Position numbers and translations under genes: made by a program | From: Muribaculaceae bacterium | Lineage (GTDB): Bacteria; Bacteroidota; Bacteroidia; Bacteroidales; Muribaculaceae | Direction: 5' to 3' | Assembly (NCBI GenBank): GCA_029070945.1 | Contig: JAIEBK010000036.1 | Coordinates: 9,571-44,387 of the forward strand | DNA: 34,817 nt | The notes under the pieces: model-generated | Told to the model about the DNA's origin: nothing | The model's database searches: none | What the model saw: the letters and a program-made list of their open reading frames with translations, nothing else | In this document: positions 1,542 to 31,888 of the stretch, one piece after another | Numbering within the stretch: the stretch's first letter is position 1 | Layout: each line of letters begins with the position of its first letter

Positions 1542-3395
1542 TTAATGAGATCCCGTGAGTTTAGCATCTTCGAGCGCGTTGATAACCTCTGTCCCACGCT
1601 GATAGACAGTCTTAAGTTCATCTGCACCTGAACCTGGAGCATACTTGGCGAACTCACAGTCATCAAGGACAGAGACAAAACTATCCACCACCTCCGAGGC
1701 AGCACCGGCCTCGGAAAGACGCTGAGCCACATTCTGACGGTTAAGCTCAGATGTCGGTATATTCAGTTTAGCTCCAACATAACCCCATAAAGCAACCAGC
1801 ATCTCATCATAGAACTTCTCTCTATCTCCCGACTTCATGCAGGCCGCTGCCTTCCGGAGTCTACGGGCCGCCACCTTGCCGGCCTTACGCATGCGCGTGC
1901 CGACAATATCCGCGGCACTCTTCAGATGACGTCTATATACGAAGACTACCACTATGAGAGCAATCGCCGGAATAAGGAACCAAAGCCAATATGCGAAAGT
2001 ATAAACCAGAGGGACACGCTCTTTAGCGAGTTTTCCTACAGGCATCAGTTCATCACTGAATCTGAGTCTGTTCTTAGTCTGTGATTTTTCAGAAAGAACA
2101 CCCTTGTCAACCTCGACAGTATATCCTTTAGCAACTGATCTTTCATATCTGCCGGTAGACGGATCAAAATAGACGAGGGAGACCTCAGGGATCTTATATT
2201 GCCCCATCTCCAGCGGAGTGAAAGAATAGTCAAACTTCACACTTCCAGTTACAGTCGCCCCTTTGGACACAGCATCAACCTGAGTAGTAGGAGAAAAGAC
2301 TTCCAGCTGCTTCGGATACAGATTATTTAGATCGGGAAGTTTTACGTACTTGATATTGCCGCTGCCTTTCACTTCATAAATAACAGAAGCCGGCTGGTTG
2401 GTCTTCAAAGAAGAAGACGGAAGTGAGGAAGAAATAGAGAATTGTCCGACACCACCTGAAAAATCAGCCGGCTGAGGAGTCGGAAGAGGCTTCACATCTA
2501 TAACAAGATCATTAGGAGTGACATTAAGCTGAATCGGACGTCGTACAGTCAACATTCTGAAATAGGGGTCATCATAATACTCCTGTTCGTCAGTGCTGAC
2601 TGTGTACGTATTACCCTTGACAGTAAGTTTCCCGGTCATCTGAGGGAAGATAATATATCTGGCTATAACAGCTGTGGCATATTCCTGACCGTTGTATGTC
2701 TCATACTGAAGCGACTTAGATGTCTCATCCGACTCCTCAACCACAAAGCCATCGAATTTAGGAGCCTCGGTCGCGCCTATAAACTTAATCGGAGCATAAG
2801 AGGAATAAAGCTTCACGGTATACACCAACGCTTCCTGCTCATATGCGGTGGTTTTTGACACAGAGGCCTTAAGGAAAAGTTTCTCATTGCCTTTACCGAT
2901 AAATTTAGGACCTTCATTCTGATCATCCTGACGTTGTGTCATAGCTCCCTGCTGAGCAGCCTGCTGTTGCTGCTGACGCTGCTGAAGTTTAGACAATGAC
3001 CCCGACCCTGACTTTACAATTGTATAGTTAGCCTTGTTACTACGGACATCTCCTACAGAAAAAGGGCCTAATGAATATGAACCTTCCTTTGCAGCGGAAC
3101 ATGTAGCTACATATGTACGGGAACTACTACGCGTCATCTTGCCATTGATGGCGGTGATCGAAGATGACTGACTGCTGAGAGTAAAATACTTCACCACAGC
3201 ACCCGGGACATCGGGAGCGGACGGCTCTCCGTCAACATTATCAAGCTTCATGTAAACGTAGAACTGCTCCCCTACCTCGATATCGTCAGCACCGGTCTGT
3301 GTAGCCACTGATATCTGAAACTTTGCCGCAGCTCCGCCCACAAGAGAGCCAAGCGAAATAAGCAAAGCCAATATGTAAAGTCTAAAACGGGTCAT
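1542..3395 (-). CDS. batD: BatD: oxygen tolerance family protein
   Basis: 617 aa, matching the BatD (oxygen tolerance) family in length and layout. A signal peptide (about 1-24) precedes a long periplasmic part made of beta-rich immunoglobulin-like segments. One transmembrane helix lies at about 465-488 (WFLIPAIALIVVVFVY), followed by a basic cytoplasmic tail of about 130 residues. A glutamine-rich linker (QQRQQQQQAAQQ, near residues 138-150) interrupts the first third, a common low-complexity feature of the family. It presumably works with the vWA proteins BatA and BatB. The 29-bp gap to batC contains two copies of ATTGAGA, a minimal example of the window's heptamer repeat. Confidence 0.93.
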   Translation of the reverse strand: MTRFRLYILALLISLGSLVGGAAAKFQISVATQTGADDIEVGEQFYVYMKLDNVDGEPSAPDVPGAVVKYFTLSSQSSSITAINGKMTRSSSRTYVATCSAAKEGSYSLGPFSVGDVRSNKANYTIVKSGSGSLSKLQQRQQQQQAAQQGAMTQRQDDQNEGPKFIGKGNEKLFLKASVSKTTAYEQEALVYTVKLYSSYAPIKFIGATEAPKFDGFVVEESDETSKSLQYETYNGQEYATAVIARYIIFPQMTGKLTVKGNTYTVSTDEQEYYDDPYFRMLTVRRPIQLNVTPNDLVIDVKPLPTPQPADFSGGVGQFSISSSLPSSSLKTNQPASVIYEVKGSGNIKYVKLPDLNNLYPKQLEVFSPTTQVDAVSKGATVTGSVKFDYSFTPLEMGQYKIPEVSLVYFDPSTGRYERSVAKGYTVEVDKGVLSEKSQTKNRLRFSDELMPVGKLAKERVPLVYTFAYWLWFLIPAIALIVVVFVYRRHLKSAADIVGTRMRKAGKVAARRLRKAAACMKSGDREKFYDEMLVALWGYVGAKLNIPTSELNRQNVAQRLSEAGAASEVVDSFVSVLDDCEFAKYAPGSGADELKTVYQRGTEVINALEDAKLTGSH

Positions 3396-3405
3396 AATTC
3401 ATATA

Positions 3406-3419
3406 ATTGAGAATTGAGA
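3406..3419. repeat. Two-copy 7-bp repeat (ATTGAGA) upstream of batD
   Basis: Two exact ATTGAGA copies lie in tandem between the batC stop and the batD start. This is the shortest tract of the period-7 family and would not be called on its own. Confidence 0.4.
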
Positions 3420-3424
3420 GAGAA

Positions 3425-4204
3425 TCACCATCGCTTGTTGTTGCGTCCCCGACCGGCCGCCTCCTGGCCATTGTTCGACTTATTGACGCGCGCACGGGTC
3501 TGATTCTCCTTATTTTCAAGGGCCTGCAGTATTTGCTCGGCAGCCTGCGGATTAATCTCAGGCTGCTGTTGTTCCTGATTCTGATTCTGCTGCTGATCCT
3601 GATTCCGGTCTTGATTCTGCTGCTGTTCCTGATCCTGATTTTGCTGCTGATCCTGATTCTTATCCTTATCTTTATCCTGATCCTGGTTCTGATCCTGATT
3701 CTGCTGCAGTTTCTTCTGCGCAATGCGAAGATTGCGACGTGTCTTCTCATCTTCAGGACGTATACGCAGAGACTGCTTATACATATCTACGGCCTGAGCA
3801 TAATCTTCTGAATTGAATGCTATATTGCCGAGATTGAATATAGCATCAGCTGCAAGGTCAGGCTTCTCCTTAACCGCCTGGGCAACTGCCTGCATAGCCT
3901 CAGCACCGGCTTTTGCCAGCTGCACGCGCAATGAATCGGACTGGGCAGCGGACGCACGTCTGACATATGTCAGACCTAAATTATACAATGCCTCCTTGGA
4001 ACCGGGTTCCAGCTTAAGCGCCTGCTGATAGAACTCACCGGCCTCAAGATAATGGCCGCCCCGAAAGAGCTCATTTCCTTTATTTACCAGACGACGTTCC
4101 TGCCGGTTGGTGGTAGCCGAAAGATCAAAAGCATTCAACAACACAACCGTCAAGGACAGGAGCAGCATCAGAGCCTTTATATTTCTAAAAAACAATTTCT
4201 TCAT
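3425..4204 (-). CDS. batC: BatC: TPR protein with Q/N/D-rich tail
   Basis: TPR protein of the bat operon. I start it at the ATG at 4204 (MKKLFF..., 259 aa); the track's 4210 start is a TTG two codons upstream. A signal peptide or anchor (about 1-30) is followed by TPR helices (about 35-155; YNLGLTYVRRA, FNLGNIAFNSEDYAQAVDMY). Next comes an extreme low-complexity stretch of about 50 residues made almost only of Q, N, D, E and K. The tail contains AAEQILQALENKENQTRARV, the conserved BatC C-terminal motif, and ends in basic GRNNKRW. The Q/N region is encoded by near-tandem DNA repeats that can slip. Fifteen bases separate it from batB. Confidence 0.9.
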   Translation of the reverse strand: MKKLFFRNIKALMLLLSLTVVLLNAFDLSATTNRQERRLVNKGNELFRGGHYLEAGEFYQQALKLEPGSKEALYNLGLTYVRRASAAQSDSLRVQLAKAGAEAMQAVAQAVKEKPDLAADAIFNLGNIAFNSEDYAQAVDMYKQSLRIRPEDEKTRRNLRIAQKKLQQNQDQNQDQDKDKDKNQDQQQNQDQEQQQNQDRNQDQQQNQNQEQQQPEINPQAAEQILQALENKENQTRARVNKSNNGQEAAGRGRNNKRW

Positions 4205-4219
4205 AACCAAACTTTATTA

Positions 4220-5260
4220 TCAGGACTCCTTCTTAAAGAAAGTAATCCTGTCAAGCCATCTTATCTTACGGTCAAGAATAAACACATCTATCAACAGCAG
4301 AGCCAATGCGATCCAGCTGAAAATAGTAAACAATTCGTCGTGAACGGCGTAAGCATTAGTCTCGAGTGCCGATTTCTTAACAGTATCCATCTGCTTCTCA
4401 AGTTCGTTGAGAGCATCCGGATTGGATGCGTTGACATAAATTCCGTCACCGGCTCCTGCGATCTTGGCGGCAAGATTCTCATCAAGAGCAGTCTCAACAG
4501 GCATTCCGGTCTCAGGATTGATCATCGGGCCCGACTTTGTAGGAATCTGTACAGGAGTCGGAGAGCCAACTCCGACCACGTTCAGCTGAATATGATTTTT
4601 CTTAGCCCTCTTGGCAGCCTCCAGAGCACCGGCTTCATCCTCAAGTTCTTCAGCATCCGTGATGAGCACAATAGACTTCCCGATATTATCATCGGCACTG
4701 AACGATTTAACCGCGCGGTCAATCGCCGCACCTATATTAGTACCCTGGTTATCATATTGCGTAGGATCGATCGAATTAAGAAAAAGCTTTGCCGAAACAT
4801 AGTCGCTCGTCACAGGAATCAGTGTATACGCGTCATTCGCATACACAATTAGACCGACACGATCGTTATCAAGACGGTTGATCAGCTTCTCGAGCACAAG
4901 TTTCGAGGCACGCATCCTGGACGTTCCGGAATTATCGGAAGTAGAGGATGCAAGCATGGAGTTAGACACATCGACCGCTATGACAACCTCGATACCTTCC
5001 TTATCAGTCTTTGAAGAATGCACGCCACCCCAGGGCCGACAAAGAGCAATGACAAGGAATGCCAATGCAGAAGCCTCAAGAGCTATCTTCAAAGGGGGCT
5101 TATATTTCGAAACCTCCGGCATCAGATCCTTGAGGGATTCCCAATGTCCGAACCTCGCAAGTCTTTTCTTCCTCGCCAGACGCGCGAGAAGATACAGCGC
5201 CACAACCACAGGCACTGCAAGAAGGAGAACGAGTAAAGCTGGATATGCAAACGTAAACAT
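4220..5260 (-). CDS. batB: BatB: von Willebrand A-domain membrane protein
   Basis: 346 aa. Two N-terminal membrane helices (about 5-27 and 57-75) precede a vWA domain whose metal-binding MIDAS motif is intact (DVSNS, D97-S101; later a conserved T in the TNIG loop and D in VLITDAEE). A C-terminal membrane helix (about 315-333) anchors the end. vWA domains bind ligands through a divalent metal, and BatA and BatB are paired paralogues in the Bacteroides aerotolerance operon. The start codon overlaps the batA stop by one base (TAATG), implying translational coupling. The ORF track's small overlapping minus ORF at 4291 is a shadow. Confidence 0.92.
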   Translation of the reverse strand: MFTFAYPALLVLLLAVPVVVALYLLARLARKKRLARFGHWESLKDLMPEVSKYKPPLKIALEASALAFLVIALCRPWGGVHSSKTDKEGIEVVIAVDVSNSMLASSTSDNSGTSRMRASKLVLEKLINRLDNDRVGLIVYANDAYTLIPVTSDYVSAKLFLNSIDPTQYDNQGTNIGAAIDRAVKSFSADDNIGKSIVLITDAEELEDEAGALEAAKRAKKNHIQLNVVGVGSPTPVQIPTKSGPMINPETGMPVETALDENLAAKIAGAGDGIYVNASNPDALNELEKQMDTVKKSALETNAYAVHDELFTIFSWIALALLLIDVFILDRKIRWLDRITFFKKES

Positions 5261-20431: not shown

Positions 20432-20598
20432 GTGTCACGCTGCAATATGTCATAATAGGCATCATTCTTATGTCGTCAGCCATATGGATTGCCGTCAGGA
20501 TTAAGAGAAAGAAGCAAGGAAAAGACTCCGTATGCTGCGGATGCAGCCTCCATGACTCATGCAGACAAAAGAAAAAAATTAAAGTCGGCGGTCATTGA
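20428..20598 (+). CDS. 56-aa Cys-rich single-pass membrane protein (FeoB-associated-like)
   Basis: This gene is too short for the ORF track. It starts at 20428 and shares ATGA with the topB stop. The product is one transmembrane helix (about 7-23, YVIIGIILMSSAIWIAV), a basic stretch (RIKRKKQGK), then a cysteine cluster (CCGCSLHDSC) and a basic tail. Layout and motif resemble the FeoB-associated Cys-rich membrane proteins, small partners of the ferrous iron transporter. No feoA or feoB is near, so an iron role is inference only. The stop codon lies in the loop of the terminator hairpin. Coupling to topB suggests it is truly translated. Confidence 0.72.
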   Translation: MSVTLQYVIIGIILMSSAIWIAVRIKRKKQGKDSVCCGCSLHDSCRQKKKIKVGGH

Positions 20599-20610
20599 AT
20601 CGCCGACTTT
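20581..20610. terminator. Bidirectional intrinsic terminator between convergent operons
   Basis: The arms AAAGTCGGCG and CGCCGACTTT are perfect 10-bp inverted repeats around a 10-nt loop. U-rich sequence follows on both strands: TTTTCATCTTTATT on plus, and TTTAATTTTTTTC on minus. It ends both the mazG-topB unit and the five-gene export operon. Confidence 0.9.
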
Positions 20611-20625
20611 TCATCTTTATTCAAG

Positions 20626-22512
20626 TCACTGGAACATGGAATTACTGTAGATTCCGAAATCTCGGTTACTTTTCGGAAGCATAGGAGTTAGATCGGGATT
20701 GCGTTCCGGTTGCCATGTCCGGATCTTTATGACTGGCTTGTCAGCATCGTTGAGGTCAACAAAGAGGAAGAGATAACCCTGGTCTCCGTAATGCTCGGAA
20801 TAATAATCCTGCCTGATCTGTATGCCAAACGTATCTCCGCCATAGGCTGCCTTTTGCACGTCGTTGTCTGAAAAGTTTATGTTCACATATTCATTACTCT
20901 CGAAACATCGTTTCAACTGATCTATGTAATCAGATTTACTTTTCCGAGCATACTCATATTTAGGAACGATACTAATACCAAATCCATCTCCGGGCATTTT
21001 CTTCACCTGCTCGAGCTTATGGCCTACTATGATGTACGCGTTCTCGTCGAAGATGCTGTTAATATAGTCAAGTCGTTTGAGTGCAAATGCTGTCTTGTAG
21101 TTTTCAAGAAAAGTAACGATTACCATCTTTACGGAGTCACTCCATGCACCGACACCCTGTTCGAAGATATCCTTCCTTGCAGACTCACCAAGCCCGAACG
21201 CAACGCTCTCTATCTTCTTTTCGGGTGAGAAAGTGAAGGTCACATCTTCTATGAAAGTGCGCTTGTTGTTCTTGAAGTCGAAACGCATTGGAATACATCT
21301 TGCCACTACTCTTTCACCGAACGGATAGAATCCGACTTCAGGACTGCCGAGTACGTAAGCTTGTCCGTAACCGAGAAGTTTATCGAACATGTCAAGTCCA
21401 TCTTCCGTGAAATAAGACGGATCAGGCTTATAGCTCTTGTCAATAACTGATTTCAGCACTTTGTCAATTACCGCCTGATATTCTTTTGCGTCTTTTTTGT
21501 CAAGCTTAGTCATTTTCTCACGTTTACCTATGGATGCTAAAGAATTGAATTCCTTTTTCGCCTCTCTATCAGGCTTTAAAGCCTTGCCCTCAACACCTAT
21601 GATCTTTCTTGCTTCCGGAAATTCTTGGGGTTTGAAATCTCCGATTATCATCTCCAGCTCCTTATCACTCCTACTGGCTTCCTTGTAACTTGTCTCTATC
21701 ACAAGCATTACGTCTTCAACCGTCATATCTTCCGGGAAAGAAAGTTGTCCAAGCCCTCCCTTGGCACTATTGATAGAGGAAGTAGTCTTTCCATTCCAAT
21801 AGGTGAAGTCAATACCGGCCGCAGGCTTATCCTTATACTTGAAGAGCACGTCTACCGTATTATCATCGCCTTTCTTAGCCACAGACACCTCGACATCCTT
21901 AAGGATCTCCGTCATACGGCTGGGAATCCAGTTGATAAGTAACCGGTCATCTCCGTCAATTTTCATTTTGACTCCACCGGGATACTGAAGTGAATGAAGA
22001 AGCACATAGGCCCAATTAAGAAAACGGAGCGCATTGTCTACTCTTCCCTTCTGTTCGGCACGCAGTGATTCTCGGACATAATCTTCCACTCGGTCCTGAC
22101 GGTGAGCAAATATCTTGTCGAGTTCAGATCGGAGCATGTATTTTAGCTGGTAATACCTACCGTTCTTGTCTCGCCAGTTTAATGTCTGGGTATTGTTTAC
22201 CGTGACTTGAGAATAGGAGTTCATGATCATGCTCACGTCAGACTTCAATTCCAGCTTACCGTTGTTGTTAATTTCATGTTCCAGTATATTGAATGAGGAA
22301 TTGACAGTCGTACCGATTTTGCCAAGGAGGCTTTGCAAGGCATTCCGGTCGGCGTCGGCGGGGGTAGCACCCTCGCCTTCGCCGTAAATGAAATCCGTCA
22401 TTCCTTTTATCACCTCAACTTTTTGCAACACCTCTTTTTTCTGGGCTGACAGAGAGACCTGACAGAGCAATCCTGCCATGAGAAATAAAATCAGTCTAAA
22501 TGAACTTTTCAT
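20626..22512 (-). CDS. Secreted LPP20-like protein of unknown function (628 aa)
   Basis: Not securely recognised. A signal peptide (about 1-23, ending SLSAQ) precedes an N-terminal domain with GEGEGATPADADRNALQSL (44-62), the pattern of LPP20/FlgP-like domains in which A..DA...AL helices follow a Gly-rich strand. It continues with QVTVNNT and a helical segment around LRAEQKGRVDNALRFLNWAYVL. No lipobox Cys is seen, so it is probably a periplasmic or secreted soluble protein. The C-terminal half (ARCIPMRFDFKNNKRTFIEDVTF..., FLFVDLNDADKPVIKIRTWQPE) is unfamiliar. Its ATG overlaps the stop of the giant repeat protein (ATGA), so the two are translationally coupled and probably act together. Confidence 0.7.
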   Translation of the reverse strand: MKSSFRLILFLMAGLLCQVSLSAQKKEVLQKVEVIKGMTDFIYGEGEGATPADADRNALQSLLGKIGTTVNSSFNILEHEINNNGKLELKSDVSMIMNSYSQVTVNNTQTLNWRDKNGRYYQLKYMLRSELDKIFAHRQDRVEDYVRESLRAEQKGRVDNALRFLNWAYVLLHSLQYPGGVKMKIDGDDRLLINWIPSRMTEILKDVEVSVAKKGDDNTVDVLFKYKDKPAAGIDFTYWNGKTTSSINSAKGGLGQLSFPEDMTVEDVMLVIETSYKEASRSDKELEMIIGDFKPQEFPEARKIIGVEGKALKPDREAKKEFNSLASIGKREKMTKLDKKDAKEYQAVIDKVLKSVIDKSYKPDPSYFTEDGLDMFDKLLGYGQAYVLGSPEVGFYPFGERVVARCIPMRFDFKNNKRTFIEDVTFTFSPEKKIESVAFGLGESARKDIFEQGVGAWSDSVKMVIVTFLENYKTAFALKRLDYINSIFDENAYIIVGHKLEQVKKMPGDGFGISIVPKYEYARKSKSDYIDQLKRCFESNEYVNINFSDNDVQKAAYGGDTFGIQIRQDYYSEHYGDQGYLFLFVDLNDADKPVIKIRTWQPERNPDLTPMLPKSNRDFGIYSNSMFQ

Positions 22513-25500
22513 CCTTTTACCAATATTTTTGTGGTTCCTACGAAATAAATACCCGGAGTGATATCATAGACTCTTTCAGTCTCTCCTGCATTTACATCTA
22601 CTATACGGATCAGCTGTCCTACCATGTCATATATCCTAAGCTTCATTGCGATCGAACTCCGTATGCATATTGAATATTTTTCACTCCAGATACAGGTGCC
22701 GTAATTATCAATTAGGCCCTCAACCGAAGACTGATCGAATACCGGTATGGCTCTCACACCCTGACTTTCAACATAGCATTCAAAAGGTTCGATATCCCTT
22801 TCATTGGATATAAAGATACCGCCGGGTTGATATTCCTGATTCATATAAGTAGTTGGAGCCTCATTGATAGTCAGTTTTCCCTCCTCCTTGCAGATCCAAC
22901 TATAGTTGCCGGATACAGAACGTCCAACTCCGAAAGAATACTGCATATCTATTTCAGAAGGAGTCATCGGAACCGTAACAACCTTAGAACTAAACACTAC
23001 ATCACTATTAACTACGAATTCACTTGCATAGTAAGGATGATTAGGCATAGCTATCAGATATGGAGTATTAGCGAATATTGAAGTCTCCGCCTTCCATTCC
23101 GTATCATTCGCACCGAACAACCAGAAGGGGCATTCTCCCTTATTAGTGTCGACATCATCTCCGAACGGCTTAAGCACTCTTCCCGCACTTTCTATTTTCT
23201 GGATATTGAAAGGAACGACCATTGTCTCCCATCCGGATCCGAATCCGCCGATCTGGGTTTGCTTGGTAAAGGCTCGGGTAAATGAAATATTCTCAGCAGT
23301 AAACTCTTTATGTGCATGAAAAGGCAATCCATGACGGAGAGTTATGCTTTCCGCACGCCCGGTCCCGGTGATAACTACATTCTTAACCACTCCATTTGAA
23401 TTCGCCACAGCAGCTGATGCGTTGTTGGCGTTTCTAACGTAAAGTAGAAGGTTGGAGTTTTCAAGTCCGCTTAGTAGGGTTGCAGGAACAAGATCATCGC
23501 TCGTTATCTCCAAAGCACATAAAGAAGAGTTTGCAGATCCGAAGATATTGCTACCGATTCGGCTCATCTGCTTTGGTAGAACAATGGATCTAAAATTACC
23601 CGCATCTAATGCACCGGTAGGGATATAAGAATCAGTAACATTCATAAGATCAAGATGCCTGAGATTCGTGAATGTTCTCAGGAACTCATAGTCTCCCGAG
23701 TCTTCCGTAGATAATCCAATCAACGGACCATGCAGGGTCAAGGAAGGAATGTTCGACTTGTCGGGACACCATCCGAATGCATCTTTCAAGGCACCGGGTC
23801 GCGATGTATAAGCATCTGTCTCGTCAGCATAATACTCGGGTGTAAATTCCATTACTTCTGAGTCAGCTGCATCAGTACGCAAAGCTATTGCTCTGATCTG
23901 AGTGAGCCCTTCCATATCTATCTTACCTGTGTACATGCTTCCCTCGCGGATATCCGTGGTTGATTGACCTAAGACATAGCGTATCATAGAACCTTCTTCA
24001 GCTTTCAGAGTAAGATAGCGACCGTCAAATACATCCTTCTCAGGACGCTGGCATCTTACATATCCAATCGGACATGATTCGGCCTCAGCCGGAATAAGTT
24101 CACCTTCAAAGGCTACAGCTCTGACCGTACAGCTTTCTGACACTGTAAACGGATTCTCATAAACCATTGATGTAGCGTCCGGTCGTGAACCGTCAGTAGT
24201 ATATCTTACAGTCTGGGATGATTTCTTTTTTATGGTGACAGTGAATAGTTCCGCGGATATCTGAGGAATATCAGTATGACCGAGACGAACTTTATCCGAA
24301 GGTATATAACCTTTTTTGTATGTATAAGCATTAACTATACTGTTATATGCAACCTTTACGCGTCTTGGATTATTATCCTCCGGTTTTAGTTCAGTATTAT
24401 TTTCATCAGTAAACCTTATTTCAACATTACTATCATCATGTTCTGCTATGACATACCCATCTGAATATCTAATTGTCGGCTCTTTTAAAACATAGTCGCT
24501 TTTGAAGAAGTCAAAGGATTCCGATCTTCTGTAGCCTTCCGCCTCAGCATATGTATAGATAGTCCGTGCTTCCCTGATGTCAATACCATCTGGCATTGAG
24601 TTTACATCATATACTTGCCTATTGTAATCAGTAATACCTTGATTAAGGCTATAATATATGACAGCATTTGGTGTTTTTGAGATCAGTACCAGATACTCTT
24701 TACTTATATCGACGATTTCCGGTTTCTCTACTTGATCCATCACCTTAACCGCATCTGCTTCAGCCGGAATCATACCTTCCTTAAAAGCAGTAGCACGCAA
24801 TATGCATGCTGAAGTCTCGAATTTTTTATCGTTATACTTAGAGCACCTTTTAGTAGGTAAACTGCCGTCCGTAGTATAGTAGACCTCCCCATCTGCATGT
24901 TCTATCTCCACAGTATAGCCATCGACTTTGATAACCGGCTTTGATACAGGAATCATAATTGCTAAATTCGAATCGTTATATCCTCTCTTTCTGGCATATG
25001 CCTTAACTGTTGAATTGTATGCAGGGATAAAACGTAGATGGTTAGAAGCAATCGTATCAAACGTTAACTCCTGAACAGGCTGAACATCTATGACAATTTC
25101 GACATCTTCCATATTGTGGGTCACATGGAGATAATCATCAGCCTCATACCTCATTATAGGACTGACAAGATCATATTCGTTTTTGTTAACAATAACCCTA
25201 TCGGAATCGGTATAACCATCTGCCTGAACCCATGTAGTGATGATGTTCTCTCCATTAAAATCTATTCCTTCCGGATGCTCCTCTGTCTTGTATTCCAATG
25301 CTGATGCAGGGTCGAAGTTACCTAAATTATATTTTATAACACCTCCCGGCATTTCCGATGAAATAACCAAGCGCGAGTTGTCATAGTGCGTCTTTGGCTT
25401 CAAAGCCTTCACCCAATCGGTATAGTGCGACACCACTACAGAACGTACTTTACCATCGGTCTCCGCGTATGCCTGAAGAGTCTGATTTCCACTTAAAGGT

Positions 25501-27347
25501 CCACCGGGAAGTTCGATCCAACTTTCGCCACAATCCTTCCATTCATCTGCAACAACCTCCTCGCCATAAGTACTTGTTTTCTTTCCATTAACAATACGAT
25601 ATTTAGCATTGCCTTCCGGCACAGAAAGCTGCACATAGTTTTTGATAGCACTTACATCACCCATATTTTCACCTTCCGTCTTGGTGCCTGACAGTATGGG
25701 GGCTTGAGTGACATAGTCATTATGGCGTATAGTAACAGACAGAATTTCAGAATCAGCAAGCAGATTCTTTGTGCTAAAGGCCTTCAATGAAGTACCGTCT
25801 TCAATCACTATAGGATTTCCGTCATAAGTTACTCTCTGCCCGGCATCGTAAAGAAGTTTATCGCTAATTTCGCCCTTACCTAAGACATAGTATGTAGTGA
25901 CACCCTCAACGCTATTGGTAAATATGAACTCATTCAATTCTTTACCTCCGTAGAATTCGAGTTGAGGCTTGGGAAGACGCATGTTTTGATCACTGATGGT
26001 CATATCCGCTACTTCAGATGGTTTTAAATCATCGTATTCAGCGATTGCCATTACCCGTGTAAACTTCTCGAGCTTGATCGGACCATTATATTCAAGTCTC
26101 TTGTCATTCCCGCTGATAGGCTGATTTCCATCAAGAGTATAATAGATTTTCGCTCTCTGATCTGCACATGAAATGGTAACCTCCCACGTGGCACTGTTGA
26201 ATGAAATTACCGGCTTTGGAAGTTTGTTGTCTTCATACATTATCCTCAGAAAGACATCGTCATCACGATTATACGCATCTTTCTTTGTATCATATAAGAT
26301 AGCAACAAACTGTCGATTACTAAGGCTGGAATCCGTTAACTTTGTAGTTTCCCCTTTTTTAAGCAAGAACGTCTTGACCAAAGCGAGATTTGAGTCCTTA
26401 GACGTATCGACTCTGTATAATCCCATACTGCAATCCTGCGATGCCTTCAGATAAAATGTCGATATTTCGCCGCATGTAAACCTATATGCCTTGAAGTTAT
26501 TGTTGTCAGTCTTTTTGAAGGAATAATCGCAAGGAACTGCAACTGAATCCGTAAGAAGTTTAGTTGTCACAGAATGCTCATATTCCGAGAGAATTGGCAT
26601 ACCCCATTCATTATTCTCGGAAAGCATCTGAAAAGAAGTGACGAACTTACCGGCAGCAGACATAGTTATAGATTTCTCTCCTGTACGATAGGTGAATTCA
26701 CGTGAATTTACTGTTCCCAACTCAGGATTATCCGGCATTTCTGTTGTTAAAGTAAAGTCTGAGTTATTAGGAACGATTCCGCTTGTCAATATATTATTGT
26801 TTATCAGAACACGATAAGACACAGCAATACTCGAAGACTTATCGGGAGCTGAAGGTATAGAGAAATACCTCATCATCATGCTACCCCATTGATTATATTT
26901 ATTGGCCATACGGTATTGCAGTGCGTGGCCCCCTTCAGAAAGTTCGTTTACATTGACTTCCAGGGAATTTGATTGACCGCTGTATGGTAGGGTATTCTTC
27001 ACCCTTGATGGTTCGTCGTTATCAAACCAATACTGAATCAAAACCGGTTCTGTCGCTTCCTTTGGATCTATATGAGGTGTTGTAGATGGCACAACGAAAT
27101 AGCTCGTCATGATACTACCCCATTTCTTATCCTTATCGGCCATACGGAAGTTTACAGCGTGCCCACCCTCGGAAAGACCACCTGCGTCTATAATCAATTG
27201 GTTTGACTGCGCACTATAGAGATGGGTATTTATTAATCTATATGTCTCGTCGTTGTCAAACCAATATTGATAAAAAGCGGGGGCCGGCGAGGATGCAAGA
27301 GCACTTAATGATACCAGCAAGACACCTGTCTTTAGAAATGTCTTCAT
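22509..27347 (-). CDS. Giant surface repeat protein (1612 aa), CHB_HEX_C/Fn3-associated type
   Basis: I start at the internal ATG at 27347 (MKTFLKTGVLLVSLSALASS, a signal peptide); the track's 27386 start adds 13 residues before the signal and overlaps the upstream gene. Residues about 28-86 and 106-166 form a duplicated unit (YWFDNDE ... LSEGGHA ... WGS). From about 400 to 1130 there are roughly nine divergent chitobiase C-terminal/Fn3-associated-like repeats (IYYTLDGNQP, VYYTTDGSLP, VRYTTDGSRP, followed by AxAFxxGxxPAEA). A leucine-rich/BspA-like stretch follows (LTNLRHLDLMNVTDSYIP). The last about 70 residues (LRIYDMVGQLIRIVDV, ITPGIYFVGTTK) look like a type IX-type A sorting domain. It is likely a surface adhesin or binding protein; no catalytic motif is seen. 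Confidence 0.8.
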   Translation of the reverse strand: MKTFLKTGVLLVSLSALASSPAPAFYQYWFDNDETYRLINTHLYSAQSNQLIIDAGGLSEGGHAVNFRMADKDKKWGSIMTSYFVVPSTTPHIDPKEATEPVLIQYWFDNDEPSRVKNTLPYSGQSNSLEVNVNELSEGGHALQYRMANKYNQWGSMMMRYFSIPSAPDKSSSIAVSYRVLINNNILTSGIVPNNSDFTLTTEMPDNPELGTVNSREFTYRTGEKSITMSAAGKFVTSFQMLSENNEWGMPILSEYEHSVTTKLLTDSVAVPCDYSFKKTDNNNFKAYRFTCGEISTFYLKASQDCSMGLYRVDTSKDSNLALVKTFLLKKGETTKLTDSSLSNRQFVAILYDTKKDAYNRDDDVFLRIMYEDNKLPKPVISFNSATWEVTISCADQRAKIYYTLDGNQPISGNDKRLEYNGPIKLEKFTRVMAIAEYDDLKPSEVADMTISDQNMRLPKPQLEFYGGKELNEFIFTNSVEGVTTYYVLGKGEISDKLLYDAGQRVTYDGNPIVIEDGTSLKAFSTKNLLADSEILSVTIRHNDYVTQAPILSGTKTEGENMGDVSAIKNYVQLSVPEGNAKYRIVNGKKTSTYGEEVVADEWKDCGESWIELPGGPLSGNQTLQAYAETDGKVRSVVVSHYTDWVKALKPKTHYDNSRLVISSEMPGGVIKYNLGNFDPASALEYKTEEHPEGIDFNGENIITTWVQADGYTDSDRVIVNKNEYDLVSPIMRYEADDYLHVTHNMEDVEIVIDVQPVQELTFDTIASNHLRFIPAYNSTVKAYARKRGYNDSNLAIMIPVSKPVIKVDGYTVEIEHADGEVYYTTDGSLPTKRCSKYNDKKFETSACILRATAFKEGMIPAEADAVKVMDQVEKPEIVDISKEYLVLISKTPNAVIYYSLNQGITDYNRQVYDVNSMPDGIDIREARTIYTYAEAEGYRRSESFDFFKSDYVLKEPTIRYSDGYVIAEHDDSNVEIRFTDENNTELKPEDNNPRRVKVAYNSIVNAYTYKKGYIPSDKVRLGHTDIPQISAELFTVTIKKKSSQTVRYTTDGSRPDATSMVYENPFTVSESCTVRAVAFEGELIPAEAESCPIGYVRCQRPEKDVFDGRYLTLKAEEGSMIRYVLGQSTTDIREGSMYTGKIDMEGLTQIRAIALRTDAADSEVMEFTPEYYADETDAYTSRPGALKDAFGWCPDKSNIPSLTLHGPLIGLSTEDSGDYEFLRTFTNLRHLDLMNVTDSYIPTGALDAGNFRSIVLPKQMSRIGSNIFGSANSSLCALEITSDDLVPATLLSGLENSNLLLYVRNANNASAAVANSNGVVKNVVITGTGRAESITLRHGLPFHAHKEFTAENISFTRAFTKQTQIGGFGSGWETMVVPFNIQKIESAGRVLKPFGDDVDTNKGECPFWLFGANDTEWKAETSIFANTPYLIAMPNHPYYASEFVVNSDVVFSSKVVTVPMTPSEIDMQYSFGVGRSVSGNYSWICKEEGKLTINEAPTTYMNQEYQPGGIFISNERDIEPFECYVESQGVRAIPVFDQSSVEGLIDNYGTCIWSEKYSICIRSSIAMKLRIYDMVGQLIRIVDVNAGETERVYDITPGIYFVGTTKILVKG

Positions 27348-27382
27348 TCTAATAAAATTAAATAAGTAAAAACATTCACTCC

Positions 27383-28342
27383 TCATTCGCCTATCCGCTT
27401 CACCGTAATGGTCAGCTTTTTATTTAATGAGTCATATTCAACATAGCTTTTTGGTTTGCCGGTATTGGAATCAATCGAAGTATCAGGAGTCGGATACTGG
27501 GGAAATAGAGTATAAGGAGTTTGACCACCCAATGTTCCATACACAGTTCCGTCATCACATTTTCCAAGAGATGATGGATTATCATCTACTCTGTCGAGAT
27601 CAGAATTTATACGAAAGCAATTTTCAAGTACACATTGGGTGCCAGAAAAGTCAGTTTCATACAGAGAATATTTAATCAATCCAATAACATCTGAACTAAT
27701 TCGGCTAATCGAACAATGTTCTAAAGTTGCAACCCCAGAACTGTCACACCCTCCCTCCAATACAGCAATCTTAGTATTGTTAATAGTTGCTTTTTTAGTA
27801 GAAAAGTTTTTAAGAGACAATTGATAGAAACTACATCTATCAATAATCAAATTATCCACTACAAATGTCTTCTCTTGACTATTTCCTTTGTCAATATACC
27901 CACTTTTAACATTTACAAACTTTAAATCTCTGAGATCGGAAGAAGGCATTATACGACGATCTGATGGAAATTCGATGCCTTCAAAACTAAAGACTTTCTT
28001 CATGTGATCTAATGAGGGATCAATATTAAGAAAGATATACTTATTTCCACTTAGTTTGGTTCCTCCTTCTTGAGCTCCAGCACCAATGAATGTTAATGGC
28101 TTATTTATCTGACACCATTGATAATTATTATTATATGTTGGAAGAACACTAATATCAATAGTTCCAGAACCGAAATAAACAGTATCATTGACTTCAGCAT
28201 CTTCAATTACTTTGTGAAGTTGATCATATGAATAGAACTTCAGTTCGCTTCCCTTATTATAGGATAGTACTATGCCGGCATTCTGTGCCATAGCTGTCAT
28301 GACCATTATGATAGTCGCAAAGAGAGTAAGAAAATGTTTCAT
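27383..28342 (-). CDS. Secreted right-handed beta-helix-like protein (319 aa)
   Basis: A signal peptide (about 1-20, ending MTAMAQ) is followed by a pectate-lyase-like opening: DQLHKVIEDAEVNDTVYFGSGTIDIS and KPLTFIGAG, the usual first rungs of parallel beta-helix proteins. Short strand-turn repeats follow (DNLIIDRCSFYQLSL, KKATINNTKIAVLEGG, VATLEHCSISRISS, QCVLENCFRIN). No lyase active-site motif is recognised, so a structural or carbohydrate-binding role is as likely as catalysis. The C-terminal tail (NKKLTITVKRIGE) is short and carries no sorting domain. It is third in the export operon, 39 bp after the BACON lipoprotein and 35 bp before the giant protein. Its DNA looks more AT-rich than the flanking housekeeping genes. 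Confidence 0.75.
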   Translation of the reverse strand: MKHFLTLFATIIMVMTAMAQNAGIVLSYNKGSELKFYSYDQLHKVIEDAEVNDTVYFGSGTIDISVLPTYNNNYQWCQINKPLTFIGAGAQEGGTKLSGNKYIFLNIDPSLDHMKKVFSFEGIEFPSDRRIMPSSDLRDLKFVNVKSGYIDKGNSQEKTFVVDNLIIDRCSFYQLSLKNFSTKKATINNTKIAVLEGGCDSSGVATLEHCSISRISSDVIGLIKYSLYETDFSGTQCVLENCFRINSDLDRVDDNPSSLGKCDDGTVYGTLGGQTPYTLFPQYPTPDTSIDSNTGKPKSYVEYDSLNKKLTITVKRIGE

Positions 28343-28381
28343 ATTCTTTTTTTTGTTATGATTGTTATTTTTATTTGTTTC

Positions 28382-29800
28382 TTATGCACCAACATTGGGT
28401 ATATTATTATCTATGTTTCCGGGAGTCATACCTTTCGTCTTGAACTTACCCGTGTAAGTAGTAATGTTATTTTCAACCTTTCCATACTCCGGTGGAAGGG
28501 TCATGCCTTTCACCATGATTTCATATTCGTATTCATGATTGGGATCCAGACCATCAACCTTTAGAGCATATTTCCAATTACCAGCATCCGAGTATTCAGG
28601 AATTCCGTTGATCGTTTTGCCGTTGACGCTCATTGTAACAGTTGCGATACGGTCAGATCCGAGAGGCTCTACATCAGACATGACGGTGAATGAAATAGTA
28701 GCGGAATTAAGATCGGTAACGACGGAAACTCCGTTATTTTCTGCATCCACTATAAAAACTCCTTGATAAATCATATTCTCAGGTTTCAATCCCGTTAAGA
28801 ACTCACGGAATTCTCCTACGTAGACTCCAACCTCATTCTCCACAAAGGGAACTATTTTGAAGTACGAATTTTCATCCAAATTCCTAAGTGAAAACTTATA
28901 GTTGCCGTTCTTCAAATACTCATTATTATCCGGACGGAGTGTAGAGATCAATATCTCTGATCCTGCTTGAACTTTGTAAATTTTTATACCGCAATCCTTT
29001 ACCGGAGATCTGGAACTGTATTCCAAAGTCAGGTCAGCGTCCACAACTCCAATCGGATCAATCCGGCAGGCCAAATTCTGCGGAAGCGTTCCAGCGTCCT
29101 GAGTCAAAATAAAAGGAAGGGGGAGATTCGACAAAGTCATCTCAGTAGAAGGTTTCATTTGAAGACGAATGATACGCTCTTTATCGGTATAGTTCGGAGA
29201 CCATGAAAAGCGATACTCTATCGGGGTGTTACCATCATTACCTTCGCCCGACAGGCCAGGAGTGACGGAAAGCCAGGAGATGTCACCGATATTACCGTCG
29301 GCATCATGAGGCAAAACCGCTATCTCCCAGTTTAGGGAACTGTAAGCCGTCATTATAACCGATCCACCTTCTTCCGGTACCGGCTCCAACGAGGGAGTCC
29401 TTTCAACGAAAAAAGTAGCATTTGACTGCGTAAGGGATACCTTGACAGGTTCCATCTCGAAATTAACAGGTGAGACTATCAGATCCGCAGTGTAACTGTT
29501 CTGAGTGGAATTAGGTCTACAAGTCACTGTAACTGTTCCGGTTCCCTTGCCAAATAAGGGAGAAACAGAAAACTGCCCGGCATTGTTATTGGTCATTGAA
29601 ACCTCCCATTTAGCTATGGAACATATCTGAATGTCAAAGCTCTCTCCTTCAGGCTTAAAGGAAAGCTGGCTCAGGCTGAGGTTTAATATCTCGTTTTCCT
29701 TTGGCTTGTCACCGACGGTAAACTCATCCTCAGCCGTATCACATCCCGTGAAAGCCAAAAGAGCATAAAAACAGATAGTGATGTTTGTCAGTTTGTTCAT
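28382..29800 (-). CDS. BACON-domain surface lipoprotein (472 aa)
   Basis: Lipobox LAFTGC with Cys20, followed by DTAEDE; an acidic cluster just after the Cys resembles the export signal of Bacteroidetes surface lipoproteins, so outer-leaflet display is likely (inference). Two BACON-like immunoglobulin domains follow (about 42-125, with SFKPEGESFDIQICSIAKWEV, and about 130-235, with VPEEGGSVIMTAYSSLNWEIAV). Then come two FN3-like modules (about 245-335 and 345-455, the latter ending YTGKFKTKGM). BACON domains often bind glycans or mucin. It lies 24 bp after the PEGA gene and is second in the operon. Confidence 0.82.
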   Translation of the reverse strand: MNKLTNITICFYALLAFTGCDTAEDEFTVGDKPKENEILNLSLSQLSFKPEGESFDIQICSIAKWEVSMTNNNAGQFSVSPLFGKGTGTVTVTCRPNSTQNSYTADLIVSPVNFEMEPVKVSLTQSNATFFVERTPSLEPVPEEGGSVIMTAYSSLNWEIAVLPHDADGNIGDISWLSVTPGLSGEGNDGNTPIEYRFSWSPNYTDKERIIRLQMKPSTEMTLSNLPLPFILTQDAGTLPQNLACRIDPIGVVDADLTLEYSSRSPVKDCGIKIYKVQAGSEILISTLRPDNNEYLKNGNYKFSLRNLDENSYFKIVPFVENEVGVYVGEFREFLTGLKPENMIYQGVFIVDAENNGVSVVTDLNSATISFTVMSDVEPLGSDRIATVTMSVNGKTINGIPEYSDAGNWKYALKVDGLDPNHEYEYEIMVKGMTLPPEYGKVENNITTYTGKFKTKGMTPGNIDNNIPNVGA

Positions 29801-29824
29801 AATATGTTATGGAAAATTAATCGT

Positions 29825-31375
29825 TTAGAGACTGAAGCTGAAAGAAAGTCCCGCGCTAATATAAAAACCACCCTTTGAAAATCCACCGTGCGAGGAAATG
29901 TCGGAAAAGAGTTGGTTGACTACTACCGGAACAGCATATTCAGGCTCAATAAAGATACCGAAAAAAGGTATTGGCTTGAATATCAGACGGGCTCCTACCG
30001 TAATATCATGACACATCGCTCCGTTACCGTGGCTGCCACCACGAAGGCGCTGCATCATGTATCCTACGCGCGGTGTCAGGCCAAGACGGTTTAGGAAGCT
30101 GAACTGATATCCGGCTTTTGCCGTTAGCTCATCCATAGTATATGTGCAGCTGTCCTCATAAGATCCCGAAGCATCGTTATCATACCAATATACCTCACCG
30201 CTACGACCGAATCCAAGTGTATACCCAAATTCAAGGTTGATATTGCTACAGAATCCTCCAATCCTTGCAGTGCCCCCATAAGCCGGACCATACGTGATAG
30301 TAAGGTCACCGTAGACGGAATTAGGTCTGATATACTGAATTCTCTGTAGAATGACGGTATCAACCGTCTCAGTATTAGCCACCACACGGAATGTCCGTCT
30401 GATGGGTTCATAACCTTTCTTTTGGAAAACATAGGTGCGTGTACCTATAGGAAGGAGTTTACTCAGACGGTTCTCTGCCACTATCGTGTCTCCTTCAGAT
30501 ATCTTGGTTCCGGAAGCCGGATTAACTTCGATTGAAAGATATCCACGGTAAGGAACCGGTGCCGGACATTCCACAAACGTCGGCTTCCCGGCTGTAGCAA
30601 TGAAGCTAACTATCTGAGGTTCGCAGTTCTCCTTCTTTATTTCAATGGAATAAGTTCCTCCAAGCAGTCGGCGCGACCATTCTCCTACTCCGACCTTATT
30701 ACCATCGAAATAGATGTCGGCATTACCTGGAACTGTGACAGTCACATCTGAATATTTCCTGCTCTCATCCTCCATCGGGAGTTCGAAACGTGATGGGCCA
30801 GACTGTGTAACGTTTATTATATCCCTATAGAGCATCATTCCCTGCTGAGCACGCACTTCATGCTCTCCATATCCTAAGTAAATCTCGTGGGGACTGACAC
30901 CGACTGAGTCCCCATCTACATATATGGAAGCATAACGAACACTTGCAACAAGATTGACTACCTTTCCTTCAGTCGTGAGTTGCATGGAATAAGTCTTGCC
31001 AGCTTGGATCTCTTCTCCAAACGCATATCTCAATGGTGAGTAGTTGCGATTGGTGATCTGTATTGATTGGGAACGTGCGGGAATATAGAGCCATATCTGG
31101 CCCGGTTTATTTTCCCTTGCCACTATTCCCATTACTCCATTGTCGAAATATGTCTGATTCTCATTAAGGTTTGTATAGATTTTGATGAGAGCAGCAGTAT
31201 TTCCGTTCTGATCTTTCTTCATCGTCGTGCTGTTGATAGCGGTCTGGTCGGTCGGAAGCAACTTGAAATCACGGACAAGCATGTCAGCACTATAGGCCGA
31301 CAATGTAGTAGCGAGCGATATAAAAAATATTATTATGGCGTATGAGAATAGCCGTCTGAAAAAAACTCCGGTCAT
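29825..31375 (-). CDS. PEGA-domain outer-membrane beta-barrel protein (516 aa)
   Basis: First gene of the export operon. A signal peptide (about 1-30) precedes an N-terminal beta domain (about 31-140). Three PEGA-like modules follow: ASIYVDGDSVGVSPHEIYL, ADIYFDGNKVGVGEWSRRLLGG, and LSIEVNPASGTKI...IGTRTYVFQKKGYEPIRR. The C-terminal about 165 residues alternate polar and aromatic residues like an outer-membrane barrel (LTITYGPAYGG, INLEFGYTLGFG, FFGIFIEPEYAVPV) and end in FYISAGLSFSFSL. PEGA modules are thought to contact surface layers or cell wall. A role as outer-membrane anchor or scaffold for the other exported proteins is inference. No promoter octamer is seen in the 150 bp directly upstream. 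Confidence 0.8.
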   Translation of the reverse strand: MTGVFFRRLFSYAIIIFFISLATTLSAYSADMLVRDFKLLPTDQTAINSTTMKKDQNGNTAALIKIYTNLNENQTYFDNGVMGIVARENKPGQIWLYIPARSQSIQITNRNYSPLRYAFGEEIQAGKTYSMQLTTEGKVVNLVASVRYASIYVDGDSVGVSPHEIYLGYGEHEVRAQQGMMLYRDIINVTQSGPSRFELPMEDESRKYSDVTVTVPGNADIYFDGNKVGVGEWSRRLLGGTYSIEIKKENCEPQIVSFIATAGKPTFVECPAPVPYRGYLSIEVNPASGTKISEGDTIVAENRLSKLLPIGTRTYVFQKKGYEPIRRTFRVVANTETVDTVILQRIQYIRPNSVYGDLTITYGPAYGGTARIGGFCSNINLEFGYTLGFGRSGEVYWYDNDASGSYEDSCTYTMDELTAKAGYQFSFLNRLGLTPRVGYMMQRLRGGSHGNGAMCHDITVGARLIFKPIPFFGIFIEPEYAVPVVVNQLFSDISSHGGFSKGGFYISAGLSFSFSL

Positions 31376-31527: not shown

Positions 31528-31629
31528 AAAAAATAAAAGCGTGAGAGCCAATACTCTGTTGTCTGTCCCACACTACGAGGCTCTGGTACTGCCCATCTCA
31601 GTAGAACAGACAACGCAGAAGCCTCACGC
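31528..31629 (-). terminator. Long terminal hairpin with U-tract (end of candidate RNA)
   Basis: The outer stem pairs 31539-31545 with 31623-31629 (7 bp) and the inner stem pairs 31558-31566 with 31606-31614 (9 bp). A further CTAC-GAG/CTC-GTAG helix lies inside. On the minus strand it is followed at once by TTTTATTTTTT, as in an intrinsic terminator. If it terminates fully, the PEGA operon needs its own promoter. Confidence 0.6.
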
Positions 31630-31875
31630 AGGATTATGTATAGCAACGCCACAGTGCGACGCTCTCGCGCCGCCGCAACGGAATGTATACATCCCTTACA
31701 GGCATCTACCGTTGTCTCATTCTTGACTGAGATAGAAATTTACCAGATTTCGTAGTGTCAAGAAAGAGCGTCAAGTAAACGCTTCCATATGTCATTTGCA
31801 GAGGATTGCGACAATTTTCAGCAATCCATCATCCCTCCCGCGTGGCCCAGACCGGGCTTCCGCAGTGCGGTCTGC
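31528..31875 (-). ncRNA. Candidate structured RNA of about 350 nt (unknown class)
   Basis: Read on the minus strand, this stretch contains several perfect helices in order. They are CAGACCG/CGGTCTG (31868-31874 with 31848-31854), GGATTGC/GCAATCC (31821-31827 with 31803-31809), and CAACGG/CCGTTG (31709-31714 with 31676-31681). A 7-bp GC-rich stem on a GAGA tetraloop follows (31656-31662/31667-31673). It ends with a long hairpin of GCGTGAG/CTCACGC and GTTGTCTGT/ACAGACAAC stems, followed by TTTTATTTTTT. A -7 octamer (TAATTTTG) sits just upstream. The hallmarks of RNase P, tmRNA and SRP RNA are absent. A multicopy non-coding mobile element is the main alternative. Confidence 0.55.
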
Positions 31876-31880
31876 AAATG

Positions 31881-31888
31881 CAAAATTA
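31881..31888 (-). promoter_or_regulatory. -7 box (TAATTTTG) for the candidate RNA
   Basis: The coding-strand sequence is TAATTTTGCATTTGCAGACC, placing a start near 31873-31876, exactly where the first helix begins. No -33 TTTG is seen at 19-21 bp, so this is a half match supported by the RNA geometry. Confidence 0.45.

Follow-up and report, generated by a model that had tools for sequence, protein, structure and literature searches.

A conserved five-gene operon of exported proteins in Muribaculaceae and the structured, multi-copy leader RNA that precedes it

Little is known of the surface biology of Muribaculaceae and their relatives, which are major bacteria of the gut. Several kinds of described systems lie close to the locus analyzed here: OmpA/OmpX-type outer-membrane proteins, PEGA-domain proteins (PF08308), the LPP20 family (PF02169), cargo of the type IX secretion system (T9SS) with a type A sorting domain (TIGR04183), polysaccharide utilization loci (PULs), transcription attenuators and riboswitches, and multi-copy small RNAs. 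In barrels of the OmpA type, the termini are periplasmic. The FopS small RNAs of Bacteroides are ~65-70 nt long and have a single-stranded seed (PMC11697453). A literature search, outside of which most subscription papers fell, returned no description of the leader RNA sequence or of the PEGA/LPP20 operons treated below.

The window (i.e. the whole stretch of 34,817 nucleotides that was analyzed) belongs to a MAG of Muribaculaceae type, which has 189 contigs and totals 2.6 Mb. A first-pass annotation had described five consecutive minus-strand genes in it, all encoding exported proteins, as an outer-membrane anchor plus displayed binding proteins. The genes are called A to E here.

The operon and its proteins

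All five ORFs were confirmed (Table 1), and inspection located an export signal (signal peptide or lipobox) in each of the five products, in agreement with the annotation. The annotated spacing of 24, 39 and 35 bp with one 4-bp overlap holds if D starts at Met14, a start that is supported by the homologue at locus L003; the longest D ORF overlaps C by 4 bp. The operon is bounded by a promoter and leader on its 5' side and by a terminator on its 3' side. The promoter box and a leader RNA, the latter missed in the first-pass annotation, lie in the 625-bp gap 5' of gene A. On one side, the neighboring genes encode EamA, an unknown protein and PNP_UDP_1; on the other, topoisomerase III and MazG.

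Table 1. Positions of the operon, leader and terminator features in the window
Feature	Position	Strand	Basis and remarks
Bacteroidota -7 promoter-like box TAATTTTG	31881-31888	minus	sequence; -33 TTG not clear in this copy
Leader 5' portion, promoter to core	31783-31880	minus	alignment; conserved between copies (GAAGCC..GG.. box)
Leader RNA core, 249 nt	31534-31782	minus	MFE, covariation, CM match
A	29825-31375	minus	ORF, 516 aa; signal peptide, N-terminal beta domain (~30-135), three PEGA-like domains, predicted C-terminal 8-strand barrel (~353-515)
B	28382-29800	minus	ORF, 472 aa
C	27383-28342	minus	ORF, 319 aa
D	22509-27386	minus	ORF, 1625 aa; true start probably ~27347
E	20626-22512	minus	ORF, 628 aa; exported; LPP20-like N-terminal domain, helical middle, NTF2-like C-terminal domain
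Bidirectional terminator hairpin, separating E from the convergent topoisomerase III gene	20581-20610	.	12-bp stem and T-run

The PEGA/beta-barrel identity assigned to the first gene was upheld. A scored 39.1 bits against PEGA (PF08308; cut-off 20.8), which is above the Pfam gathering score. The AF2 model had a pLDDT of 86.4 and a pTM of only 0.43, so the arrangement of the domains in it is unreliable. When this predicted model was searched with Foldseek, the barrels of OmpA, OprF, Ail and OmpX were matched (for OmpA, 1bxw, 2.5e-5 and a TM of 0.68 of the target), and A is predicted to carry an eight-stranded outer-membrane barrel of the OmpA/OmpX type, with strands at residues 353-515. Given the OmpA-type topology, A should hold its N-terminal and PEGA domains in the periplasm; it is thus more fittingly taken for an anchor that has a periplasmic arm than for a displayed protein.

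The label "LPP20-like" for the last gene is backed by profile comparison, in which E found the solved LPP20 protein 4kzs at 3.8e-7; in Pfam, E scored 14.7 bits, below the gathering score of 25.9 (PF02169), and the relative at L089 scored 24.8. In the model of E (pLDDT 81), the C-terminal domain is NTF2-like. Its matches include the NTF2 domains of the periplasmic wall enzymes Bd1075 and Pgp2, and E weakly matches Cds6_C in Pfam.

B is a lipoprotein with the lipobox LLAFTGC and acidic residues after the Cys; acidic residues at this position resemble Bacteroidota surface-lipoprotein signals. It had been annotated as a BACON lipoprotein. The lipobox bears out the second word, and the match to BACON (PF13004; 20 bits, E 7e-4) is below the Pfam cut-off of 25; B is also Fn3-like. 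At the C-termini of otherwise divergent B homologues (L003-L080), a ...G..P...DN..P pattern is conserved, encoded in the window at 28382-28440 (minus strand). C is exported and probably a parallel beta-helix protein. A weak profile match (2.7e-5) links it to the beta-helix of PL6 alginate lyases; it shares only part of the PL6 fold, and it matched no Pfam entry and no lyase family. D is a giant repeat protein with WFDND repeats and strong Pfam matches to Fn3_assoc/CHB_HEX_C_1 repeats. The sorting-type tail noted earlier was recovered: against TIGR04183 (cut-off 23), it scored 24.7 bits in the genome scan and, below the cut-off, 21.1 bits in the protein scan. SprA is encoded in the same genome (2602.7 bits), and D is a candidate for type IX secretion.

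No SusC, SusD, glycoside-hydrolase catalytic domain or regulator was found in domain scans of A-E, as the annotation had stated. The search for a SusC/SusD pair also covered the five flanking genes that were scanned, without a match, and no regulator or catalytic domain was present in the adjacent genes scanned. Pfam returned no Mfa_like (fimbrillin) domain in A-E, which sets the operon apart from Mfa/Fim fimbriae; a fimbrillin-like domain is confined to a smaller paralogous E'-A' cassette.

Conservation and the A-E pair

The five-gene operon is real and conserved in other Muribaculaceae. Among eight loci from public genomes (L003-L010) and additional ones, the order A-B-C-D-E was observed in L003, L006/L071 and L070, and as far as the contig end in L004 and L005 (in L005 to D). 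The order A-B-D-E was observed in L007, L008 and L010; in L009, A-B is followed by the start of D, where the contig stops. Rearranged orders are D-A-B-E (L074, L076, L077, L079) and C-D-A-B-E (L075). The expectation that the five genes would co-occur was borne out in so far as A-B-C-D-E or A-B-D-E recurs in Muribaculaceae. The set is not a fixed five-gene machine, because C is missing at several loci, the order is rearranged, and other proteins take the place of B, C and D outside of Muribaculaceae, where A and E persist.

In 197 complete Muribaculaceae genomes, 12 full-length A genes were identified, 11 of them with E downstream on the same strand; the twelfth adjoins a contig end, so all 11 evaluable A genes are near E. 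Profiles of A and E were also applied across many Bacteroidales families, and an A-type gene was found on the same strand within ~7.4 kb in 45 of the 50 evaluable E loci. Among homologues, identity is 58-82% for A and E, and 24-71% for B, C and D; the length of D varies from ~780 to >2480 aa. Judged by these comparisons, A and E are an ancient pair and B, C and D lineage-specific, so that the five genes represent one local form of an older A-E chassis whose partners can be exchanged.

Two other settings of the pair were noted. Outside the type of operon present in the window, A and E usually come with a 210-aa LPP20-like lipoprotein and with a protein that is transglutaminase-like and ~500-885 aa long, often adjoining E (L088-L100 and L142-L153). 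A smaller E' (NTF2-like)-A' pair lies between genes for fimbrillin-like, M64-peptidase and LRR lipoproteins in L101-L105 and L109 (L102 being the copy in the window's own genome), and in L103 a Ser/Thr kinase-like gene is located 3' of this cassette.

A structured leader RNA

The leader stretch 5' of A is strongly conserved in L003 and L004, occurs in several copies in its own genome, and is present in most genomes of the same genus. Its core comprises, in order, P1, a left arm (helices a, b and c), a variable hairpin, a 3' terminator-like hairpin formed by T1/T2 and Y/Z, and a U-run. For the window copy, the MFE was -109.5 kcal/mol (z -7.1) and the match to the covariance model (CM) reached 102.5 bits. 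No family in Rfam 15 matches this RNA, the sole match being a 14-nt chance one (E = 4).

The structure was derived from 36 aligned full cores of 239-265 nt and consists of two crossing sets of helices. In the deriving set, 96.7% of cells were paired, and double changes occurred in 33 of 57 pairs; the double-change cells numbered 302, compared to 88.6 +/- 8.6 in shuffled alignments and 23-43 with slid partners. The same structure was then applied to a second set, i.e. the window plus 30 copies from other Muribaculaceae loci that lay outside the derivation. There, 97.6% were paired, with 243 double-change cells (74.4 +/- 8.3 shuffled; 20-37 slid). Covariation is very strong in both sets, and by computation there is firm support for this being a structured RNA. 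For the outer stem T, which hardly varies and leads into U residues, the pairing is supported more by complementarity than by covariation.

The segment Y (GUUGUC/GUUUGCUC) is complementary to two others, X (in the left arm) and Z (in the right flank). It covaries with both (X:Y, 5.97 compared to 5.09 +/- 0.15 shuffled; Y:Z, 9.53 compared to 7.12 +/- 0.32), which points to mutually exclusive folds. The leader has mutually exclusive pairings backed by covariation, as is looked for in attenuators and riboswitches. Where copies of other families and genera were compared, the 3' hairpin loop found a better pairing partner in the sequence upstream of it in the same copy than in the corresponding sequence of the others, usually in the same 9+7 bp pattern. 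The alternative pairings of Y, together with a 3' hairpin that ends in a U-run, suggest a transcription attenuator, and from this anatomy we infer that the leader works as one.

A CM built on the 3' domain of the RNA was used for the genome counts. Of 197 Muribaculaceae genomes, 179 were matched, representing 25 of the 26 genera. Among 295 Bacteroidales genomes, 51 were matched, including more than 20 other families; outside of Bacteroidales, there were two marginal cases only. The RNA is a multi-copy structured RNA of Bacteroidales, undescribed as far as was found. With 21 candidates scored per genome, copy numbers are lower bounds, and they are underestimates because the repeated sequence breaks assemblies and leaves copies at contig ends. 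Copies at or near contig ends were seen in L196, L197, L199, L201, L214 and L216.

In 40 further regions fetched for leader matches, nearly all copies stand directly 5' of a same-strand gene. Among copies with enough sequence, 93 of 97 have a same-strand ATG ORF within 400 nt on the 3' side, starting at a median distance of 58 nt with a peak at 43-64 nt. A -33/-7 promoter pair was located upstream of the RNA in 34 of 38, 23 of 29 and 7 of 25 copies in three groups, compared to ~0.3-0.5 in shuffles. When 1.0 Mb of A/E loci were scanned, strong matches occurred only at the 5' ends of operons, nine in all: before A in the window, L003, L004, L083 and L084, before C in L075 and L082, and before an LPP20-like first gene in L093 and L095. 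In L156, there is a weaker match, before the gene upstream of E. A recognizable copy is present in only about a quarter of the A/E operons that were examined, and the RNA is not intrinsic to them, since L005, L006 and L070 are without one.

The proteins encoded 3' of the RNA are varied. They include LRR adhesins (8 of 71), BACON and DUF4595 proteins and, as single cases, an UpxY antiterminator, an ECF sigma factor and a type III methyltransferase. Exported proteins make up 47 of 93 (50%), compared to 38% of other ORFs at the same loci; the enrichment is only weak, and a surface regulon is not claimed as shown. A defense theme was dropped, as it would rest on the single type III methyltransferase. 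An invertible promoter 5' of A was also rejected, the inverted repeats there being short or explained by the RNA hairpins, as was a mobile-element or phage origin of the leader, phage and plasmid records being without a match. One exact-pattern copy is present in an IMG/VR contig (L294:5897-5926) that has phage-like (terminase-like) genes next to genes resembling those for bacterial surface proteins, with a T9SS-type LRR protein following; this contig is probably a prophage edge. In L206, an IS110-type transposase gene (3229-4287) is convergent with an RNA copy at a distance of 32 nt.

Interpretation and comparison with known systems

Gene order, A-E linkage, domain content, and the structure and placement of the RNA were established by computation. 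The reading that we prefer, and to which we give an even chance, is that of a switchable leader RNA followed by genes for a surface assembly, whose exchangeable surface parts are carried by an A-E chassis. A would be anchored in the outer membrane by its eight-stranded barrel, with the N-terminal and PEGA domains reaching into the periplasm, and E would be its soluble periplasmic partner (LPP20-like plus NTF2-like), in physical contact with it. The lipoprotein B and the putative type IX cargo D would be presented outside together with the beta-helix C, these three being lineage-specific parts that probably serve in binding. Transcription would start ~500 nt before A and run through the leader. 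In one fold, a long rod, the left arm and X would pair with the right arm and Y; in the other, T1/T2 and Y/Z would form the terminator-like hairpin before the U-run. The choice between the two, possibly triggered by a ligand or protein, would decide whether the operon is expressed. The annotated anchor-plus-display idea is supported in part and remains plausible: the predicted barrel of A, the candidacy of D for type IX secretion and the lack of PUL markers speak for it, but the real unit is an A-E pair with variable cargo.

The pair could instead be primarily a periplasmic module for envelope maintenance or peptidoglycan linking, to which surface proteins were added later; A would tie the outer membrane to the wall, and E, with transglutaminase-like or LPP20-like partners, would act on or sense the wall. 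This we regard as somewhat unlikely. The company of A and E outside of the Muribaculaceae group (a small LPP20-like lipoprotein and a transglutaminase-like protein, with no T9SS protein), the resemblance of the C-terminal domain of E to those of Bd1075 and Pgp2 and, weakly, to Cds6_C, and the expected periplasmic location of the PEGA arm are all consistent with it. In Muribaculaceae, however, A and E are consistently intermixed with genes for BACON lipoproteins and for T9SS proteins, and the smaller paralogue of the pair adjoins fimbrillin-like and LRR lipoproteins. A carbohydrate-binding or nutrient locus lacking SusC/SusD, whose BACON and chitobiase-C-type domains bind glycans, seems improbable. 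The BACON-like B, the CHB_HEX_C_1 repeats in D and the PL6-like profile of C would fit such a locus, but neither the operon nor the adjacent genes supply SusC/SusD, a catalytic domain or a regulator, and C has only part of the PL6 fold and no lyase family match.

For the RNA, it is an evenly balanced proposition that the operon belongs to the regulon of an undescribed, multi-copy, cis-acting Bacteroidales RNA that switches accessory and surface genes on or off by attenuation. Each unit would consist of a promoter and an RNA of ~250-340 nt, whose right arm is either paired over ~24 bp with a left arm upstream of it or located in the terminator hairpin loop. The genes switched would be those for LRR adhesins, BACON lipoproteins and PEGA/LPP20 assemblies and, singly, for an UpxY-type antiterminator and a type III methyltransferase. 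It is unlikely that the leader is a free-standing small RNA gene with mere neighbors downstream, even though a promoter and a terminator-like 3' end of its own are present and multi-copy small RNA families exist in Bacteroides (FopS; PMC11697453): such a gene would not need the closely spaced same-strand ORFs that follow nearly all copies, and the dual covariation of Y fits a switch. If the leader is a switch, one RNA class would control many accessory and surface genes in most Muribaculaceae, a role that is directly testable by simple termination and reporter assays. The conserved A-E chassis with its exchangeable surface parts is likewise a defined target for knock-out and proteomics.

Compared to described proteins, A has the barrel topology and size of OmpA/OmpX-type proteins and a PEGA match above the cut-off, but its soluble arm precedes the barrel and, besides an unnamed N-terminal beta domain, contains three PEGA-like domains, and A is linked to an LPP20/NTF2 partner. 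E resembles the LPP20 family in its N-terminal domain by profile, but has no lipobox, is 628 aa long and ends in an NTF2-like domain. D shares with type A cargo a tail above the TIGR04183 cut-off in the genome scan, in a genome with SprA, and differs from usual cargo in its place inside an A/E operon. With PULs, the operon has in common co-transcribed exported proteins and a BACON-like lipoprotein, but not SusC/SusD, enzymes or a regulator. The leader is like transcription attenuators and riboswitches in the alternative pairings of one segment and in a hairpin with a U-run just 5' of the start codon; it differs from them in being without a known ligand or Rfam match, in preceding functionally unrelated accessory genes, and in the ~24 bp that its left arm forms with the large 3' hairpin loop. 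The FopS/GibS RNAs (PMC11697453) are also multi-copy in Bacteroidales, with a canonical promoter and a terminal terminator hairpin. Length and structure rule out that the leader is FopS: it is ~250-340 nt long, has a crossing (pseudoknot or switch) architecture, and is placed directly before genes.
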